Made by a program: the position numbers and the translations under genes
Notes under the pieces: generated by a model
The model's input: the letters and a program-made list of their open reading frames with translations, nothing else
Databases searched by the model: none
Told to the model about the DNA's origin: nothing
Part shown: in pieces, positions 835-13,907 of the stretch
Numbering within the stretch: position 1 is the stretch's first letter
How the letters are laid out: every line of letters starts with the position of its first letter
Origin: a virus
Virus record (IMG/VR): IMGVR_UViG_3300020281_000122
Coordinates: 1 to 24,747 of that record
Direction: 5' to 3' (one strand)
Length of the DNA stretch: 24,747 nt

Positions 835-937
835 GATCTTGCTTTGCCCTCTTTTTTATTGAATCAACATATTTTTTCCAAAAAATATCAGCTATTGCAT
901 GAAAGAAATCGTATAACCTCATGTAAATATTACTCAT
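731..937 (-). CDS. Small protein of the lysis-end cassette (68 aa), overlapping the next gene
   Basis: The ATG at 937 overlaps the stop of the holin candidate by four bases (ATGA), a typical coupled start. Residues 1-33 (MSNIYMRLYDFFHAIADIFW onward to KKRAK) form an aromatic, amphipathic helix that looks like genuine protein. From about residue 35 on, the frame overlaps the first 104 bases of the next gene and reads out as Lys/Gln/Ser-rich sequence, as expected when a poly-Lys gene is read in another frame. The real conserved part is therefore probably the first 33-38 residues, with the tail a by-product of overlap. Function is unknown; the aromatic helix beside a holin might associate with membrane. 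Confidence 0.6.
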   Translation of the reverse strand: MSNIYMRLYDFFHAIADIFWKKYVDSIKKRAKQDHGITKQKKEKQQEKSNTNKQGSVRKSKSRNKKKI

Positions 938-1326
938 TTTTTCCCCATCAGTTTCATTGCTTGACCAACACCTTTAATGCCAAATGAACTAGAAACGGCT
1001 ATAAATAAAAGATATTGATACCATTTTGGTAATGTATTTAAGACTTCAAAACCTTGTCTGACATACTCTGTCATGCTCGGTATAAAGACTAATATTGCAG
1101 GTAGTAGTAAAACAATTAGAGCAAACTCATCTTTCCAACTGCTATCTGTGGCATCAGCCATAGATTTTTCCCATGCAATCTCACCTGATGCTATTTTTTC
1201 TGCTACTGCTGCTTTACTTTTAGCTTGAGCAACTTTAGCTTGGCCATCAGCTTTAACTTTTTCGACCTTAGATTCCATCCAAGAACTAGCAAGGTTAGCT
1301 ATAGGCCCAATAAGGGCTGAAAACAT
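934..1326 (-). CDS. Holin candidate (130 aa, two membrane helices)
   Basis: The N-terminal half is an amphipathic Ala/Lys-rich helix (about residues 15-55, with AQAKSKAAVAEK), followed by a SWKDE segment at 63-67. Two hydrophobic helices then follow at about 67-84 (ALIVLLLPAILVFI) and 102-120 (WYQYLLFIAVSSSFGIKG), and the end is basic (KLMGKK). This layout (charged helix, W-K-D-E, two membrane spans, lysine tail) matches proteins annotated as holins or 'TM-helix containing' in marine podoviruses, as I recall them. A holin would open the inner membrane so that the endolysin encoded further down this transcript reaches the cell wall. The neighbouring EF-hand membrane protein is an alternative holin, and the two could act as a pair. 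Confidence 0.65.
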   Translation of the reverse strand: MFSALIGPIANLASSWMESKVEKVKADGQAKVAQAKSKAAVAEKIASGEIAWEKSMADATDSSWKDEFALIVLLLPAILVFIPSMTEYVRQGFEVLNTLPKWYQYLLFIAVSSSFGIKGVGQAMKLMGKK

Positions 1327-1327
1327 A

Positions 1328-1642
1328 TTATTTCCTATTCATAAAAGCAGATGCACCCATGTATGCAGCAACGATACCACCACCAGTGATATAAAAAAGA
1401 TTACTAATATCTGCCAAAGCCTTAACTCTTTCCAAATCGACAAAGAACATAGCAAAAGTAAACAAAGCCATAGCAACCAAACTGGCAGTTGCCATACGTC
1501 TTTGCGCTCTTTGTTTTCGTAAATCATGTTCTAGCTTCTTTATTTCACTTACATGACTTAGTTCTTCGTCACTAACTATCCCATCACCATCTTCGTCATA
1601 CTCTGCGTAGATAGATTCTTTCTGTAGTTTTTTTTGGGTCAT
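1328..1642 (-). CDS. EF-hand membrane protein (104 aa), holin-like
   Basis: Residues 16-27 read DEDGDGIVSDEE, a complete canonical EF-hand loop: Asp at positions 1, 3 and 5, Gly at 6, a hydrophobic residue at 8 and Glu at 12. It is followed by a charged helix (about 28-49, KKLEHDLRKQRAQRR) and two hydrophobic segments at about 50-68 and 82-101, ending in NRK. A single calcium-binding loop on the N-terminal face of a small two-span membrane protein is visible directly. Its role is inferred: size, topology and position next to a holin candidate suggest a lysis or membrane-timing function, possibly sensing divalent cations. The start overlaps the preceding stop (ATGA). An internal alternative-frame ORF at 1339-1527 is a shadow. 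Confidence 0.82.
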   Translation of the reverse strand: MTQKKLQKESIYAEYDEDGDGIVSDEELSHVSEIKKLEHDLRKQRAQRRMATASLVAMALFTFAMFFVDLERVKALADISNLFYITGGGIVAAYMGASAFMNRK

Positions 1643-3582
1643 TCTAAATTAACTGTTGGTAATGCTAAATTTTGTTGAAGGTTACCTGTAAAAGCATTTA
1701 TAGCTTCTGCAAGTTCACCATCTTTACCAGGTAATGCTGCTAATTTACCAAATTGTGTTACTAGCTGATTAGGTGCTGTGTTAGCCACTTGAGCAGTCGA
1801 TTTTACCCATCTAATAAATTTAGGGCTTGTCATTAGCTTTGCAGCAAATCTTGGTGCTAAAACTGTTGCACCTACTGCTGCACCTGCAACTGGCTGTCCT
1901 GTAAGAAATAAGCCACCTGATGTAAGTAATGATGTTACATTAGCAAAACCAATATTTACAGACCCAGTTCTTGATGGATTGTTAAGCAAACGTCTTTCAT
2001 CAACTGTTCTTACAACCCTTACAAGACTATCTATTTCTTTTGCTATTTCTTTTTGTCTTGGTCTGTTAAATAAAACTCTCTTAACACCTGTATCTAATTT
2101 ATTCCACTCATTTAAAAATGTTGTGGGTGACCAACCAGAATTAGGATCAGCTTTGTTATAACCTAATCTTGAAAATATAGTTGATGATACAGCATCCCTT
2201 TCTGGTTTTGTAAGTGTTTTAAAAACCTCTTTTATTCTTTGACTTCCTTGTTTGCCACCTTGCATAGCAAAAGTAAAAATCTGTGAATCAAGTGCTTTGT
2301 TTTGAATAGTCTCAATAGTTTTTTCTACACCACCTGTTTTCTTAGAAACGAACTTATTATATTGATCTGCTTTTTTTAACAACCTACTTGCTTCTGGGCT
2401 AACAGCATCAACAGATGCAAATATGTCTTTTGACAACGCACCATAAATAGCATTTAACTTGCCATCACCTGTAGACTCAATTTTTATTTTTCCTGGTGTA
2501 GCAGGGCCAATTATTCTACCTATTTCAGTACGAATTTGTCTAGCAGCACTTAAAGGCACAGACCCATCGGTAGCATCATTTAACAAATTATTAATTTTAT
2601 CTAATGATGGTTTATATATACTTTTCAATGTGTTAGGTGCTGAAGCTAATTCATTTTCTAAATTTGCTTTCAATGTTCTTATATTGTTTAAATTTACTTT
2701 TGCATTACCTGCTGCATCAAAAGCTGCCCCATACAAAGCTTCTTTTTTATTCTGTATTTTTTCAAAATAATTTTTTGAACCTGTTTTTATTATTGTGCCA
2801 ACATCTTGAATACTTGGTGCAGCATCGCCTAAATCTTTTGTAATTTTACCTACTACATCTTGAAGTTGTTTTTGTAATTTATCTCTTGATGCACCAATAA
2901 TGTCAGCAGCAAATATATTACCACCTAGCACTTCTTCAACATTAGCAACACCTCTGCTACCTGTTAATGTGGCAACTGTTGGCTGTACTCCAATTTTATC
3001 AAAGTCACTTGCTCTTTGGCCTGGTCTTATACCACTTAAAGTTTGTGTGCCTTTTTTTATCCCAGATTGTACACCTTTTAATAATTTATCAGCAGCAGCA
3101 CCACCAACGGCTTCCATGCCTATGTTCTCACCTGCTCTAATAATGTTTTGTGCTAAAGGTCTTTCAACATTACCAGGTGTAAGGGCATCACTTACTACAT
3201 CATATAATTGACCACCCATTTCACTACCCATAGCAACACCAACAGGAGTTGTAACTACACCAGGAGATGTTACAGCACCACCAATAAAACCACCTACTCC
3301 ACTAGCAAATTCTCTGCCTACACTTGGTATATCTCCCCAATCAAGTCCAGGTGGGTTGTAAACAGTTAGGTTGTCATTTCTATCTAAAAAGAAAAGATTA
3401 TCTGCACCATATTTATTTACAATATCAAGGTTAGGATTTGCTTTTTGTAAATCTTGTGCTGTGTAAACCTTTGGATAATATTTTTCTAATATAGATTTTC
3501 TTTGATTGTCAGGGGCATTGCCTACTGCTGCTCTTATAGCAAATGATGCACCACTTTCATCAATAGATACTTGTTTAGCCAT
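1639..3582 (-). CDS. Internal virion / ejection protein (647 aa)
   Basis: A large protein with two glycine-zipper-like hydrophobic regions, near residues 90-125 (GVGGFIGGAVTSPG) and 550-590 (GLFLTGQPVAGAAVGATVLA), separated by long Lys/Glu-rich helical sequence. The start has a good ribosome site (AGGAT about 8 bases before the ATG at 3582). Large helical proteins with Gly/Ala membrane-compatible patches late in a podovirus structural operon are typically internal or pilot proteins ejected ahead of the genome to form a conduit across the envelope (P22 gp16 and T7 gp15/gp16 are the models). I see no lytic transglycosylase or other enzyme motif. The assignment rests on composition and position after the fibres; no specific family is claimed. 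Confidence 0.7.
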   Translation of the reverse strand: MAKQVSIDESGASFAIRAAVGNAPDNQRKSILEKYYPKVYTAQDLQKANPNLDIVNKYGADNLFFLDRNDNLTVYNPPGLDWGDIPSVGREFASGVGGFIGGAVTSPGVVTTPVGVAMGSEMGGQLYDVVSDALTPGNVERPLAQNIIRAGENIGMEAVGGAAADKLLKGVQSGIKKGTQTLSGIRPGQRASDFDKIGVQPTVATLTGSRGVANVEEVLGGNIFAADIIGASRDKLQKQLQDVVGKITKDLGDAAPSIQDVGTIIKTGSKNYFEKIQNKKEALYGAAFDAAGNAKVNLNNIRTLKANLENELASAPNTLKSIYKPSLDKINNLLNDATDGSVPLSAARQIRTEIGRIIGPATPGKIKIESTGDGKLNAIYGALSKDIFASVDAVSPEASRLLKKADQYNKFVSKKTGGVEKTIETIQNKALDSQIFTFAMQGGKQGSQRIKEVFKTLTKPERDAVSSTIFSRLGYNKADPNSGWSPTTFLNEWNKLDTGVKRVLFNRPRQKEIAKEIDSLVRVVRTVDERRLLNNPSRTGSVNIGFANVTSLLTSGGLFLTGQPVAGAAVGATVLAPRFAAKLMTSPKFIRWVKSTAQVANTAPNQLVTQFGKLAALPGKDGELAEAINAFTGNLQQNLALPTVNLE

Positions 3583-4849: not shown

Positions 4850-6028
4850 CTATCTAAGTAAGTATGCTGCGCCTAGATTACCTGCCAATCCAAATAATCC
4901 ACCTAAATCTGCTGATCTACTTGCCATAGCTTGATTGAAAGCATTTTGTTGTGCTGCCTGTTGTGCTGCAAATGCTCCTTGAGTATCTATTGCTCCTGGT
5001 GCAAAGAAACTAGCTTGTTGTATTTGTGGGCCACCAAGTAAGGCTGCTAACTCATTAAAGTTCTGACTTCTTAGTGCATTTCTTTCAGCTATTTCACGTT
5101 GTCTTTGTTGTTGTGCAATTTGATTAGATAGTAACTGATCGGCTATCTGTTGCTGTCTTGCTGCGTTTTGTAACTGAACATTGGCTGCATCTTGTCCAAA
5201 TGCCTGTTGTTGTCTCGCTAGTCCGAACTCACCTGTGGCTGCTCTTTCACCAAACTCCATAGCCCTATTCTGTCTAGCCTGATTGACTAATCTATCAGAT
5301 TCTTGACCTGCTGCTAATGTAGCCTGTTGCGCTAGTCTCTGTAGTTGTTCATTTTGTTGTGATTCAAGCCTGTTTACAGCTTGGTTATATGGATCACTTG
5401 TAATAGGTATGCCACGATTTATTAGATTGGTTTCTAGTTCTTCTCTTTGTCTAGTAAACTCTGGCTGTAACAAACCTAACTGTCTATTAAACAAAGTTTG
5501 TTCAATAGTGCTTCTAAATGCTTCTGGGTCAGATTGTAAAGCAGTCAAACCCTCTGTGCTTAGTGCTTGTGGTAAGCCTACATCTGTTCCTATATTTTGA
5601 TTAAATGCTTGTAAATTAGCAAGTTGTGTGGGATCAATCTCTTGTGCTGCACTTATACCTGATAATGTTGGTGCTGTTCTAAATGGATTTTGAAAGTCAG
5701 GATCATCTTGGAATATAGGTGTACCATCAGGATTTTGCCCTATAACTGTACGACCTGTAACTCTACCAAATGCAAGATTACCAAGACCTAAACCAGTACC
5801 TTCTGTAGCTGCTCTTAGTTGTGCTTGAAAAGGTGTTTCTTGTGTAAATGCTGCTGCTTGACCATCTTCAGGTACTACACCTTGCACAAACTGTCCCTGA
5901 TCTCCTACAGAACCAAATAATAAATTACCATAAGGTGTAAACTGTGTAATCCTGTTGGCATTAGCTTGAGCATTAATTAACTCATTTGGATTAGGTGCAG
6001 GAGGTGGAGTTGGACTGCTTTTACCCAT
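4850..6028 (-). CDS. Probable internal or tail-tip virion protein (392 aa)
   Basis: The start MGKSSPTPPPAPNPNELINA is a proline-rich lead followed by QANANRITQFTPYGNLLFGS. The motif 'KSS-PPPAP-P, ANAQA-ANR, TPYGN' is one I recall from structural proteins near the internal-protein genes of many marine podoviruses and siphoviruses. Residues 180-345 are extremely rich in Gln, Ala and Arg (for example QQQRQREIAERNAL) and predict as one long helix or coiled coil. The C terminus (about 370-392) is Gly/Leu-rich and mildly hydrophobic (GGLFGLAGNLGAAYLLR), perhaps membrane-active. The start overlaps the GNAT gene by eight bases and has an AAGGA ribosome site about 8 bases upstream. The role is most likely structural or ejected. 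Confidence 0.62.
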   Translation of the reverse strand: MGKSSPTPPPAPNPNELINAQANANRITQFTPYGNLLFGSVGDQGQFVQGVVPEDGQAAAFTQETPFQAQLRAATEGTGLGLGNLAFGRVTGRTVIGQNPDGTPIFQDDPDFQNPFRTAPTLSGISAAQEIDPTQLANLQAFNQNIGTDVGLPQALSTEGLTALQSDPEAFRSTIEQTLFNRQLGLLQPEFTRQREELETNLINRGIPITSDPYNQAVNRLESQQNEQLQRLAQQATLAAGQESDRLVNQARQNRAMEFGERAATGEFGLARQQQAFGQDAANVQLQNAARQQQIADQLLSNQIAQQQRQREIAERNALRSQNFNELAALLGGPQIQQASFFAPGAIDTQGAFAAQQAAQQNAFNQAMASRSADLGGLFGLAGNLGAAYLLR

Positions 6029-6455
6029 ATTTTAATTCCTTCTTAGTTTTCTTTATCCATTTACATTCATCTTTTAACATTCCCCAAATAATCGCATCAT
6101 TGGGATAATACATCTGTCTCAATATACCCTCTGGTGTAAAACCTAACTGTCTGTTCATTTTCATGGCTTTGTGGTTACTTTCATCGCAAGTAACTAGCAA
6201 TCTGTTTGCATCACATTGTATGAATGGATAAGCAAACAAAGAATACAGGACAGACCGAGTAGCCCATCTAGGGGAGGAGGATGCTAAACTAGCTTCAATC
6301 TGTCCATCTCGGTAATCGTGAAAAACTGCACCTGCAATCAACTGATTATCTCTTTGAACACCAATAGCTGTACTTGGCCCAAACCCTCTAATCCCAATTT
6401 TTTTCGCAACCCATGCTCTTACATAATCATCTATGTTTGTAACTATAGAAATCAC
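6021..6455 (-). CDS. GNAT-family N-acetyltransferase (144 aa)
   Basis: The fold is recognisable from its order: a beta-rich N-terminal half with AIGVQRDNQLIAGAVF, an Arg-rich step toward helix 3 (SSSPRWATRSVLYSLFAYPF), then RLLVTCDESNHKAMKMNRQL, and the typical GF-x-x-EG-x-x-R end (LGFTPEGILRQMY). GNAT enzymes move an acetyl group from acetyl-CoA to an amine; the N-x-x-A-x-x-x-x-x-x-LGF-x-EG pattern is typical of the RimJ/RimL-like branch. The acceptor cannot be read from sequence. Such genes are frequent between tail and internal-protein genes in marine phages. The start is GTG at 6455, overlapping the preceding TAG stop (TAGTG). It could acetylate a virion protein or a host target; both are inference. 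Confidence 0.82.
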   Translation of the reverse strand: MISIVTNIDDYVRAWVAKKIGIRGFGPSTAIGVQRDNQLIAGAVFHDYRDGQIEASLASSSPRWATRSVLYSLFAYPFIQCDANRLLVTCDESNHKAMKMNRQLGFTPEGILRQMYYPNDAIIWGMLKDECKWIKKTKKELKYG

Positions 6456-7141: not shown

Positions 7142-7312
7142 TTAGTTTTTAATAATTATTGATATTAGAAGCACGATGGTTGTACCTGCTGATCCAATTA
7201 GTACAGCTTCTAGTCTTTTAACTCTATTAAGTAACTCTATAAATCTTTCCTGGCTAAGTGCTGCTAGTGTATCTAATTCAGCCTTTACAGATTGCACACT
7301 AGGTTTTGCCAT
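7142..7312 (-). CDS. XhlA-like small membrane protein (56 aa), holin accessory candidate
   Basis: Found by hand translation: the ATG at 7312 overlaps the stop of the preceding 58-aa gene (TGATG) and the frame ends at TAA 7144-7142. It starts MAKPSVQSVKAELDTLAALS. An amphipathic helix with heptad-like spacing (about residues 5-35, RFIELLNRVKRLEAV) is followed by one hydrophobic span at about 36-53 (LIGSAGTTIVLLISIII) and a short KN end. N-terminal helix plus C-terminal membrane anchor, with an R-V-K-R-LE sequence just before the span, is the layout of the hemolysin XhlA family that works with holins. The match is to layout rather than a confirmed alignment. It could also be a membrane-bound virion component. 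Confidence 0.68.
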   Translation of the reverse strand: MAKPSVQSVKAELDTLAALSQERFIELLNRVKRLEAVLIGSAGTTIVLLISIIIKN

Positions 7313-7488
7313 CAATCAGCATCCTCTATTTTATTGCCTTCCTTGACCCATTCTTGGATTGCTTGGTAGTCTATATTATCAGGAGCTAAAGGTATATGTA
7401 AGATTATATTAGAATTACTTTTAGTAGCTCTATAACTACATAATTTTCCTGTTGCTGGGTCTATATTTTTTTTAACACTATCAAACAT
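7312..7488 (-). CDS. Small tail-region protein (58 aa)
   Basis: Found in the gap between the last fibre and the membrane proteins. The ATG at 7488 has an AGGAG ribosome site that overlaps the stop of the fibre gene at 7500-7498. The 58 residues start MFDSVKKNIDPATGKLCSYR and end IQEWVKEGNKIEDAD. The closing pattern D-Y-x-x-I-Q-x-W-V-x-EGN-x-IE-x-AD is one I recall from many small proteins that follow tail-fibre genes in marine phages, where it is thought to be a fibre-associated or fibre-assembly piece. There is no membrane span or catalytic motif. Stop overlaps the next start (TGATG). Confidence 0.75.
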   Translation of the reverse strand: MFDSVKKNIDPATGKLCSYRATKSNSNIILHIPLAPDNIDYQAIQEWVKEGNKIEDAD

Positions 7489-11118: not shown

Positions 11119-12360
11119 TTATCCTAAAGCTATTGCAAGTGCTACAGCATTTGACTCTGCCGTTGCTTCTGTTACAGCACCAATGTCACTTAGAACTTCA
11201 CTTGCGCTTCTACCTTCTATTGTTGTGCCATTTACTCTTAAAAAGTCATCGTCAACAACACCTGATCCGAAAGTAGCCACATTGCCACTAGATATACCTG
11301 ATGTTGGTATTTGTGATGTAAGTGCCAAAGTTCCTGCTGTTGTTGGTAAAACTATGCTGACATTACCTGAGAAATCTGAATGAGCAGGAGCAGTAAGTTG
11401 TGCGTAATGTGCATTACTTGATTCACAATAAAATTTTATGTTTGACTGAGATCCACCATTTTTAAGAACAATCTCACCAGTTTGTATATCTACGTTACCA
11501 TCTATTCTGACAACACCTGTGCCATTTGGACTTAGTGCAATATTACCATTACTTGTAGACACAATAGAGTTTGATTGAACATCTAAGTCACCACCTAATT
11601 GTGGAGAAGTGTCCTCAACAATATTTGACATAGTACCTGCTGCAAGACCTGAGACTAAAGCACTTCTTGTAATCTTTTTTAAACCACCACCAGATGTATC
11701 AACAGCCATCAAAACATCATCACTAGCCACACTTGTTATTGCTGACAATGAAGTTATTGATACTGGGTTGAAGTTTGTGCCATCAGCTATGAGTAAGTGA
11801 CCTGCTGTGTTTGTACCCATAGTTAGGTCATCGCCACTTATAGTGAGATCACCAGTAATTGTTGTATCGCCACCAACTGTTAAATTACCTGCAACAGCTA
11901 GTGTAGAGTCAGCAACAGTAGCATTTGGTGTATGTGTTAGGTAAGTAACAAATGATCCACTAATTTTACTTGCTAATGTAAGTGTGCCACCATCTGCAAT
12001 ACTCAGTTTATGCTGATCTGCGTTATCATCGCCCTGATCTGCTTTTAGCACTATACCTAATGCAGCACCTTCAACATTTGCAGCTATCTCTAAACTATCA
12101 TTAGTGCTTTCATCATATTGTATTGCTATGTCAGAGTTTGTTCCAAGTAACAGTGTTTGATTATCAATAATAGATAAACCTACTGCAAATGGTATCTTAG
12201 CTGTTGTTGTTTGTGTGCCATCTTTTAAAATACAAGTTGTTAAGGCAGTTGTTATACCATCAAACTCTTGATCCATACGATCTGCACGAATTTTGATGCC
12301 ATTATCTCTGTCATCTGTCCAATCGTATATTCTTGAAAATGTGCCACTACTAAAAGGCAT
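11119..12360 (-). CDS. Tail fibre protein (413 aa)
   Basis: The N-terminal MPFSSGTFSRIYDWTDDRDN and following GIKIRADRMDQEFDGI (about residues 1-37) is a widespread fibre N-terminal domain that attaches to the tail. Residues 60-340 are beta-rich with shaft-type repeats (LTVGGDTTITGDLTISGDDL, ISLSPNGTGVVRIDGNVDI-like segments). The last 60 residues form a Gly/Ser-rich stretch and a helical end (EATAESNAVALAIALG). It is the first and longest fibre after the nozzle gene, whose stop it overlaps (TAATG). No lyase or hydrolase signature is visible, so receptor binding rather than depolymerisation is the default assumption. Confidence 0.82.
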   Translation of the reverse strand: MPFSSGTFSRIYDWTDDRDNGIKIRADRMDQEFDGITTALTTCILKDGTQTTTAKIPFAVGLSIIDNQTLLLGTNSDIAIQYDESTNDSLEIAANVEGAALGIVLKADQGDDNADQHKLSIADGGTLTLASKISGSFVTYLTHTPNATVADSTLAVAGNLTVGGDTTITGDLTISGDDLTMGTNTAGHLLIADGTNFNPVSITSLSAITSVASDDVLMAVDTSGGGLKKITRSALVSGLAAGTMSNIVEDTSPQLGGDLDVQSNSIVSTSNGNIALSPNGTGVVRIDGNVDIQTGEIVLKNGGSQSNIKFYCESSNAHYAQLTAPAHSDFSGNVSIVLPTTAGTLALTSQIPTSGISSGNVATFGSGVVDDDFLRVNGTTIEGRSASEVLSDIGAVTEATAESNAVALAIALG

Positions 12361-13907
12361 TACAATGGCCCTCCTGGTAAGAAGTGAAAATTACTGTTTA
12401 TTATGCTGACAACCTGCGTTGATGATGCCACTTTGATCCTCAAAGAAGCTGATCTACCAAGCGATCCTACTGCTTTTCTTTTTTGTATTATTCCTGCTGC
12501 GATTGTATCGCCCCAAAAATCTAAATCCCATTCTGCTTCATCCCAAGCAGCAACCTCTGAATCAAATGACCCAGTTGATAAATTAATTCCTGATGGTGTT
12601 CTCTGATCTATAGCCAAACCAAAATCAAATGCTACATCACCTATAGCTTCAAATGTAGGCGCAATACTTGAGAACCTTTTTACACTCGATCTATCGCCAA
12701 AATAATTAAAAGCAAATGATACGTCAGCAGTAATGGCTGCTGATAAGTCTGCAACACCACCTATCTTATATACCTTGCCATCTGTTGTTCCAAAGTATGT
12801 ATCACCATTAAAGTTTGCAAAGACATGAGCAGGTATATTCTGAAATATAGCCCAAGCCCTTGTTATAGGGTTAAAAACGTGTTGGTTAAAAGTATCTGTT
12901 GCATCGCCAGTAGGATAATTAAAATATACCTTTGAGCCATCAGCAGAAACGTGTATTTGCCAACCAGTAGAAGTGCCTGTAGAAGCCACTTGGTTTATGA
13001 CTGTACCTCTTATTTTTTCACTTATAGCTGCTGCTCTATTACCAACTAGGTCTTGTCTAAAAACCTGTGATAAAGGTAAATATCCTTCTTTTGTTATAAT
13101 TATTAAATCACCACCAAGTTTAGCTATGGCTCTTGGCTCATTTATAGGTTCTGCTATCCTAAATGTACCAACCAATGCAAAACTAGATGCGCTAGGATCA
13201 GTACCAGAATAAACCAATACCTCACCACTACTCATTATCAAGGTTAGAAGGTCATCAATACCCTCACCACCATCTTGTGTCAAAACACCAATCTGTATTA
13301 GGTTACCACCAAATGTACCAACCAAACCTACAGGAAACTTAGTAAAATTACCTTGATGTGTGTCCACAGTAGCCGAATAGTAAAAATTCTGATCTGTGCC
13401 AGTAAAGTAATATAACCTGTTCTTATAGGCTGTAACACCCTTTAGTGTTGATGCACTAGCACTATCTGACAAGGTTATACTTAGGTTTGATGCTGAACTG
13501 CCATTCCAACTAAAGGGTGTATCTGCTCCATTTACAAAAATGGTTAAACCATTAAATTCAACTGTCTGAAATCTACCATTTGATAGACCTGTTTTTTTAC
13601 TAACAGCAGTACCAGAATCTATCTGATATAACGTGCCATTTGACCCTACAGCTAGTAACTGTCTGTTTGCTCCTGCATTATGTTCTACTAATGTTTCAAC
13701 ATTACCAGTGCCTATGCCTGTGCAAAAACTACTGTAACCTTCTCTTGTTGTTATCTTTTCCACAGTTGGAAAGAAATTACTCATCACTATTGCATCTGTT
13801 TGTGGCATAGCATCTAAGCTATCTCTTGAGTTCAAGCCACCAAAAGGTGCAGGTATATTTACAGATTTTACATTATATCTGTTTGCTGATCTTAATGGTT
13901 GAAGCAT
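12360..13907 (-). CDS. Tail nozzle / DNA-stabilisation-type protein (515 aa)
   Basis: After a short lead, residues 17-50 contain VNIPAPFGGLNSRDSLDAMP and NFFPTVEKITTREGY. This opening pattern (PAP-GGLN-RDSL-AMP-TDA, N-FP, R-GY) is one I recall in a very common podovirus protein that closes the head-tail channel, analogous to P22 gp10 or T7 gp12. The rest is made of repeated beta hairpins with propeller-like aromatic/Gly turns (LLAVGSNGTLYQI, GLTIFVNGADTPFSWNG, NRLYYFTGTDQNFYYS, TYFGTTDGKVYKIGG). It sits directly after the adaptor with a TAATG overlap, the expected order for a short tail. Precise equivalence to P22 or T7 proteins is inferred. Confidence 0.78.
   Translation of the reverse strand: MLQPLRSANRYNVKSVNIPAPFGGLNSRDSLDAMPQTDAIVMSNFFPTVEKITTREGYSSFCTGIGTGNVETLVEHNAGANRQLLAVGSNGTLYQIDSGTAVSKKTGLSNGRFQTVEFNGLTIFVNGADTPFSWNGSSASNLSITLSDSASASTLKGVTAYKNRLYYFTGTDQNFYYSATVDTHQGNFTKFPVGLVGTFGGNLIQIGVLTQDGGEGIDDLLTLIMSSGEVLVYSGTDPSASSFALVGTFRIAEPINEPRAIAKLGGDLIIITKEGYLPLSQVFRQDLVGNRAAAISEKIRGTVINQVASTGTSTGWQIHVSADGSKVYFNYPTGDATDTFNQHVFNPITRAWAIFQNIPAHVFANFNGDTYFGTTDGKVYKIGGVADLSAAITADVSFAFNYFGDRSSVKRFSSIAPTFEAIGDVAFDFGLAIDQRTPSGINLSTGSFDSEVAAWDEAEWDLDFWGDTIAAGIIQKRKAVGSLGRSASLRIKVASSTQVVSIINSNFHFLPGGPL

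Follow-up and report, generated by a model that had tools for sequence, protein, structure and literature searches.

A strictly conserved EF-hand loop in a family of two-span phage membrane proteins, candidate effectors of lysis

We identified a phage protein that combines a complete EF-hand loop with two predicted membrane helices, encoded in a 24,747-base virus record with terminase, portal, capsid, and tail genes (the whole of this stretch of DNA is referred to as the window). Sequence comparison places the protein in a large phage family in which conservation is highest in the loop, with the calcium-ligand positions ranking among its most constrained residues. This strict conservation, together with the usual place of the gene beside lysis genes, suggests that the protein is probably a calcium-sensing version of a membrane-opening lysis protein. 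The description that we favor, with moderate confidence, is a holin-type lysis effector with two spans in an N-in/C-in, class-II-like arrangement and an N-terminal calcium-binding loop, where pore formation, calcium binding, and gating are predicted properties.

The EF-hand loop and the predicted membrane topology

The gene, its parts, and the two flanking genes lie in the window as follows.

1328–1642, minus strand: gene of the two-span membrane protein with the EF-hand loop (104 aa, ATG start, PHROG 27150-like)
1562–1597, minus strand: 12-residue EF-hand loop, residues 16–27 (D-E-D-G-D-G-I-V-S-D-E-E)
1439–1495, minus strand: TM1, about residues 50–68, at the end of one continuous predicted helix (25–65) that starts within the loop
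1343–1405, minus strand: TM2, about residues 80–100, inside predicted helix 70–102; a second hydrophobic segment is scored in homologues too
1639–3582, minus strand: upstream gene of 647 aa, whose stop overlaps the start of the EF-hand gene (ATGA at 1639–1642)
934–1326, minus strand: 3TM-holin-like membrane protein of 130 aa (PHROG 2524; distant link to PF11351, GTA_holin_3TM)

A sequence-only reading of this DNA had proposed a complete EF-hand loop followed by two membrane helices, and both features are borne out. Residues 16–27 satisfy EF-hand positions 1, 3, 5, 6, 8, and 12 (ligands at 1, 3, 5, and 12, glycine at 6, a hydrophobic residue at 8), and the helices are supported by hydropathy and by an AlphaFold2 prediction. 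A chance motif was rejected, as the strict loop arose in 5 of 200,000 shuffles of the window protein and in none of 1,838 distinct neighboring ORFs outside the family (367,275 aa). The window protein alone scores 17.5 bits against Pfam EF-hand_1, under the curated cut-off of 25.4, and the family profile matches solved EF-hand proteins in the PDB with E = 3.2e-10.

The AlphaFold2 model of the window protein (mean pLDDT 77, pTM 0.52, N-terminus of low confidence) contains a short helix at residues 11–15 and two long helices at residues 25–65 and 70–102. The short one is the entering helix of the loop and is not conserved: a proline stands four residues or fewer ahead of the loop in 33 of 74 relatives, and fewer than eight residues precede the loop in nine of the 74. 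The exit helix is predicted from residue 25. Because the entering helix is not conserved, we describe the site as a loop plus an exit helix, not as a canonical EF-hand pair; keeping only these two elements is a dockerin-like trait, and single isolated EF loops are often weak calcium binders unless paired. Compared with calmodulin-type EF-hand proteins, the family shares the 12-residue loop, all ligand positions, and the profile match (E 3e-10), whereas its loop is single, its entering helix varies, and its exit helix is continuous with a membrane span.

About 23 charged residues separate the loop from TM1 in the window protein. Two spans are indicated by hydropathy and AlphaFold2, with the second span of the window protein passing in the model only and not at the stricter hydropathy cut. 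Topology prediction, a check that the sequence-only reading had proposed, gave a uniform answer: positive-inside charges favor an N-in/C-in arrangement in all 74 relatives. The loop is thus predicted to lie in the cytoplasm, mechanically joined to TM1.

Foldseek comparison of the model with the PDB gave no matches at E 0.001 or better, and neither did a structure search of BFVD, where a phiM9 'transmembrane protein' ranked third at E 0.26. The window protein exceeded the threshold of no Pfam, NCBIfam, or PHROG holin model, and the EF-hand protein had no match to GTA_holin_3TM (PF11351) at E 1; the CRP-9 protein alone gave a sub-threshold match to Phage_holin_3_6 (15.1 versus 28.4 bits). Profile matches were to PHROG 27150, which holds family members with the loop, and PHROG 22774, which holds members without it; neither PHROG has an assigned function.

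Conservation of the loop was followed in two overlapping sets of relatives. In the first collection, for which the loop served as one search pattern, 77 of 78 distinct relatives retain each of positions 1, 5, 6, and 12; the exceptions are Stenotrophomonas phage DLP6, which lost the loop, and CRP-810, with Asn for Asp at position 5. Retrieval was then repeated with loop-free queries that start after the loop, yielding 150 loci and 135 distinct proteins (each scan was limited to its best 80, out of 590 and 333 relatives), some of these loci being already in the first collection. Among the 135 distinct proteins in these best-80 sets, 134 carry the strict loop and the remaining one has Gln at position 12, and retrieval bias as the cause of the conservation was therefore rejected. 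The choice of start codon for the alignment required a loop match; of the 230 loci supplied, only L067, which has ambiguous residues, fell out and was dropped before the conservation counts.

The resulting alignment of 74 members is invariant at five columns only, namely D16, D20, G21, and E27 (loop D1, D5, G6, and E12) and Q47. The acidic residues D1, D5, and E12 are thus fixed in 74 of 74 proteins, the opposite of the free variation that, by the sequence-only reading, would have told against a calcium site. Codon changes at D1, D5, G6, and E12 are synonymous only; taking the six key loop positions together, synonymous changes make up 76% of codon differences, versus 28% outside the loop, and among 100,000 randomly drawn six-position sets, 17 reach the synonymous share of the loop. 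The loop is a real feature and under strong purifying selection. An appeal to the calcium of seawater, part of the earlier reading, proved unnecessary, since a freshwater Limnohabitans phage and Sinorhizobium phages also keep the loop.

Genomic context of the gene

Isolates that carry the gene include the Roseobacter phages CRP-1, CRP-9, CRP-207, CRP-345, and CRP-810, Pelagibacter phage HTVC008M, Methylophilales phages Melnitz, Limnohabitans phage DC31, Sinorhizobium phages, and, in loop-less form, DLP6. There is one copy in each of 17 records searched. An ordinary bacterial gene was considered as an alternative origin and rejected: a pattern-limited scan of a genome collection recovered a single relative, on a Pelagibacter MAG contig. 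The capsid protein of the window itself is nearest to those of Bradyrhizobium phage ppBjS10J-1 (51% identity) and Stenotrophomonas phage BUCT555 (46%).

Merging identical EF-hand proteins on their last 70 residues left 162 loci. We excluded 53 of these because at least one flank had fewer than three genes, which gave 109; a further 20 loci, in which the ORF picker lost the EF-hand gene, are outside the context counts. Lysis-type genes, defined as 3TM holin-like, endolysin, or spanin genes within six genes, accompany the gene in 74 of the 109 distinct loci, a T4-type baseplate-hub cluster does so in 14, and neither is found in 21 (raw counts). This recurrence across unrelated phages strongly supports the link to lysis made in the sequence-only reading. 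In 53 of the 74 lysis-context loci, the nearest lysis-type gene is the first or second neighbor. A 3TM holin-like gene is present in 43 of the 74 (in 16 with nothing else) and absent from 31, and 15 have an endolysin and a u-spanin-like gene without a 3TM gene. The endolysins near the gene are M15_4-like (PF13539-like, with a PHROG endolysin match), GH24 (PF00959), M15_3 (PF08291), and GH108 (PF05838), and these differing types indicate that the EF-hand gene has met different lysis modules. In CRP-345, the order is EF-hand gene, 'spanin2', endolysin, and in DC31, EF-hand gene, Rz-like gene, endolysin.

Several labels behind these counts involve judgment. One link in the 3TM holin-like cluster, which was built by single linkage, is weak. 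Except where a PHROG or the record names a spanin, the labels u-spanin and Rz1 reflect manual reading (lipobox, spans, nesting). The o-spanin and DUF1353 labels cover five proteins each, assigned by BLAST from proteins chosen by reading; Pfam confirms DUF1353 for two of its five, and DUF1353 was not counted as lysis. CRP-207 (L007) was scored as 'neither', its authors calling the adjoining gene a putative lysozyme, a name without Pfam support. CRP-1 gp54 (L005 4731–5072) and its relatives, annotated as hypothetical, have a lipoprotein signal and a C-terminal span, fall in PHROG 30566 together with CRP-345 'spanin2', and look like a u-spanin family.

The context within the window is sparser. 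The ATGA overlap with the 647-aa upstream gene suggests late co-expression of the EF-hand gene, and counts from a promoter and terminator scan were under the shuffle means. On the other side, the ORF at 934–1326 begins one base past the EF-hand stop and is the only lysis-type gene near the EF-hand gene in the window. PHROG 2524, to which it belongs, has no assigned function. It matched neither the Pfam 3TM-holin model directly nor the 3TM holin family by direct BLASTP, and reaches the PF11351 family via intermediates only (E 5e-30, 5e-5, and 4.5e-33). The sequence-only reading had placed the EF-hand gene next to the holin; that this neighbor is a holin is probable.

Other window genes are recorded here as side observations. 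A run of small lysine-rich basic ORFs follows the 3TM-like gene (103–937; one is DUF5872), and similar basic ORFs recur around the EF-hand gene in relatives. About 5 kb upstream lie the one-span protein C1 (6652–7122, PHROG 32327) and a 57-aa coil-plus-span protein (7142–7315). C1 may act as a partner in lysis, as many loci have a C1 relative one or two genes ahead of the EF-hand gene. An Acyl-CoA N-acyltransferase-like gene (6021–6455) sits inside the structural module. The tail module contains a 515-aa protein (12360–13907) that matches a PHROG 'amidase' of the lysis category and may be a virion-associated hydrolase; besides it, no further endolysin was seen among the scanned window ORFs.

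CRP-1 and HMO-2011, the pair for which terminases were compared, are closely related: their TerL proteins are 85% identical, and their C1 proteins are 29% identical. CRP-1 has the order C1, basic ORF, EF-hand gene, endolysin, u-spanin-like gene, TerS, TerL, and HMO-2011 has C1, an unnamed gene, 3TM-like gene, a second unnamed gene, lysozyme, TerL. The slot between C1 and the endolysin is thus filled by the EF-hand gene in CRP-1 and by a 3TM holin-like gene in HMO-2011. Across ten complete isolate records, the HMO-2011 3TM-like protein matches three (HMO-2011 itself, CRP-13, and CRP-901), from which the EF-hand family profile is absent, and has no match in the other seven (CRP-1, CRP-9, CRP-207, CRP-345, DC31, CRP-810, and DC33), all of which the profile matches, DC33 with a loop-less protein. 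No 3TM match of either kind was found in CRP-1, CRP-9, CRP-207, CRP-345, or DC31. The exclusion is not universal, because CRP-810, which has an EF-hand gene and a PF11351 holin, and the window carry both kinds.

Homologues of the membrane part that lack the loop were detected among 1,439 ORFs in phage cta1H496 (L247 2998–3210, profile E 1.7e-10) and Limnohabitans phage DC33 (L252 2989–3306, E 4.7e-11). Both genes stand directly upstream of an i-spanin-like gene with a nested lipoprotein gene, followed by an endolysin, which is the textbook place of a holin. The spanin-like neighbors have Rz-like PHROG matches, the one in cta1H496 being weak. DC31 and DC33, which infect the same host, have the same gene order, and their Rz-like proteins are 40% identical. 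The DC33 holin-like ORF is unannotated in its record, and the Inoviridae label of that record looks wrong because it is 39 kb long with an Rz-like/endolysin cassette.

Proposed role of the loop and alternative readings

Where a 3TM holin-like gene is present too, as in the window and 43 of the 109 loci, the EF-hand protein may not be the main holin. It could instead be an antiholin or co-holin that pairs with the 3TM holin-like protein and restrains or frees it in response to calcium, without forming the pore, and the one-base spacing of the two genes in the window, their joint occurrence in those 43 loci, and CRP-810 with both all fit such a regulator. We consider it unlikely, as CRP-1, CRP-9, CRP-207, CRP-345, and DC31 have the EF-hand gene without any 3TM match. 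In CRP-1, a screen of annotated CDSs for proteins below 300 aa with at least two hydrophobic segments returned 2 of 67, the EF-hand protein and the u-spanin-like lipoprotein, which leaves the EF-hand protein as the sole two-span non-lipoprotein small protein found.

For the holin-type effector, we propose tentatively that a cytoplasmic EF-hand loop senses calcium as it first leaks across the inner membrane and makes the pores open in synchrony. The calcium-gated form is possible but less than probable; that calcium times lysis is plausible, given the predicted cytoplasmic loop and the exit helix predicted to run into TM1. The protein would be made late, on one transcript with structural genes, and would build up in the inner membrane. 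Its loop would face the cytoplasm and, at the very low free calcium there, stay empty; the exit helix would be continuous with TM1. A first breach or depolarization, caused by early holin holes, by the neighboring 3TM holin-like protein, or by outside damage, would admit calcium and fill the loop. With the loop filled, the helix may be stabilized or may pair with another subunit, so that the lattice opens all at once, and this sharp, all-or-none trigger would let endolysin and spanins complete lysis. The direction of the calcium effect is conjectural, and the loop could instead hold the pore shut.

The same residues could form a permanent calcium or magnesium site that stabilizes a helix of a lysis protein or another membrane protein and senses nothing, a reading compatible with the holin assignment and to which we give a low probability. 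Conservation alone cannot tell a structural from a regulatory site, and cytoplasmic magnesium is millimolar. Position 12, however, is Glu in 74 of 74 proteins, where Asp would favor magnesium, and a calcium site at the predicted cytoplasmic location would be unoccupied at rest.

The T4-like carriers raise another alternative, a tail or entry protein that anchors the baseplate-hub/tape-measure assembly or acts from the virion at the inner membrane, with calcium telling outside from inside. HTVC008M, Melnitz, phiN3, and phiM12 share the order gp26, gp51, EF-hand gene, tape-measure-like gene, and DLP6 has the same order with its loop-less homologue; this hub context accounts for the 14 loci above, and in HTVC008M the next gene has tape-measure PHROG matches. 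We regard this role as possible within the T4-like carriers but as rather improbable for the family, because in most other lineages the neighbors are not tape-measure genes but endolysin, spanin, or 3TM holin-like genes. The T4-like location is also weakly informative, since lysis genes in DLP6 are scattered without a lysis module, according to the DLP6 paper. The DLP6 gene beside the loop-less homologue (L009 4421–6583, 720 aa) has a GH108 lysozyme domain at residues 508–582 and weakly resembles tape-measure proteins over its first half. Related marine contigs L102, L161, L164, and L165 have an Rz-like/Rz1-like pair near the gene (L161 and L164 also DUF1353), and L110 has an Rz-like and a DUF1353 gene. 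The T4 holin model (PF11031) matched none of seven records of T4-like and other carriers, and the controls were also without a match.

A role in superinfection exclusion or host takeover, without connection to lysis, is very improbable for this membrane protein. In its favor, the loop-less DLP6 protein has a weak match (E 4e-4) to PHROG 2203, a 'membrane protein' in the moron and host takeover category, and 21 of the 109 loci show no recognized lysis or hub gene; against it, the family recurs beside different lysis modules and its loop-less homologues sit in textbook cassettes.

Relation to known systems and implications

Class II two-span holins such as S of phage 21 are small late proteins encoded beside the endolysin and spanin genes. 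The EF-hand family resembles them in size and predicted late timing, its two spans, the predicted N-in/C-in topology, and gene position, and differs in the charged stretch of about 23 residues and the EF-hand loop before TM1 and in having no sequence match to a holin family, its holin role being predicted. The GTA_holin_3TM (PF11351)/PHROG 2524 proteins occupy in HMO-2011 the slot that the EF-hand gene fills in CRP-1 and are its neighbor in the window, yet they belong to a different sequence family with a different number of spans, and the EF-hand family is absent from the three isolates with the PHROG 2524 type. STIM1 is a eukaryotic membrane calcium sensor with a luminal loop, a single span, and a paired EF-hand plus SAM domain. 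An EF-hand coupled to a membrane helix is common to both, driving oligomerization in STIM1 and proposed to do so here, whereas the phage proteins have two spans and a loop predicted to be cytoplasmic.

Calcium control of a phage lysis protein has a precedent in the phage T5 endolysin EndoT5, a calcium-activated L-Ala-D-Glu peptidase in which control acts through a mobile loop (PMC10487532). The parallel lies in loop-based control, which is predicted for the EF-hand family; EndoT5, in contrast, is a soluble peptidase without a membrane span, and calcium acts on the enzyme (PMC10487532). The Melnitz paper puts CsgG forward as an analogue of a pinholin, and a term search of its text gave no mention of EF-hand or calcium (PMC9004378). 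We found no description of an EF-hand holin in the literature searched, which mostly lay outside subscription papers; by title and abstract, papers joining EF-hand and holin were mostly on endolysins, and EF-hand remarks found among them concerned an unrelated orphan protein or an absence. For EF-hand proteins in Pelagibacter lysis, the literature search returned a paper on plankton transcription.

The family would provide a candidate lysis protein for abundant marine phages that infect SAR11, OM43, and Roseobacter hosts and for which few lysis genes are known. What makes a holin fire at a set time is a long-standing open question, and a holin-type family with a ligand loop stricter than its own spans would offer a direct handle on lysis timing. 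If the protein is calcium-gated, the lysis clock would be an ion sensor, and not only a concentration threshold.
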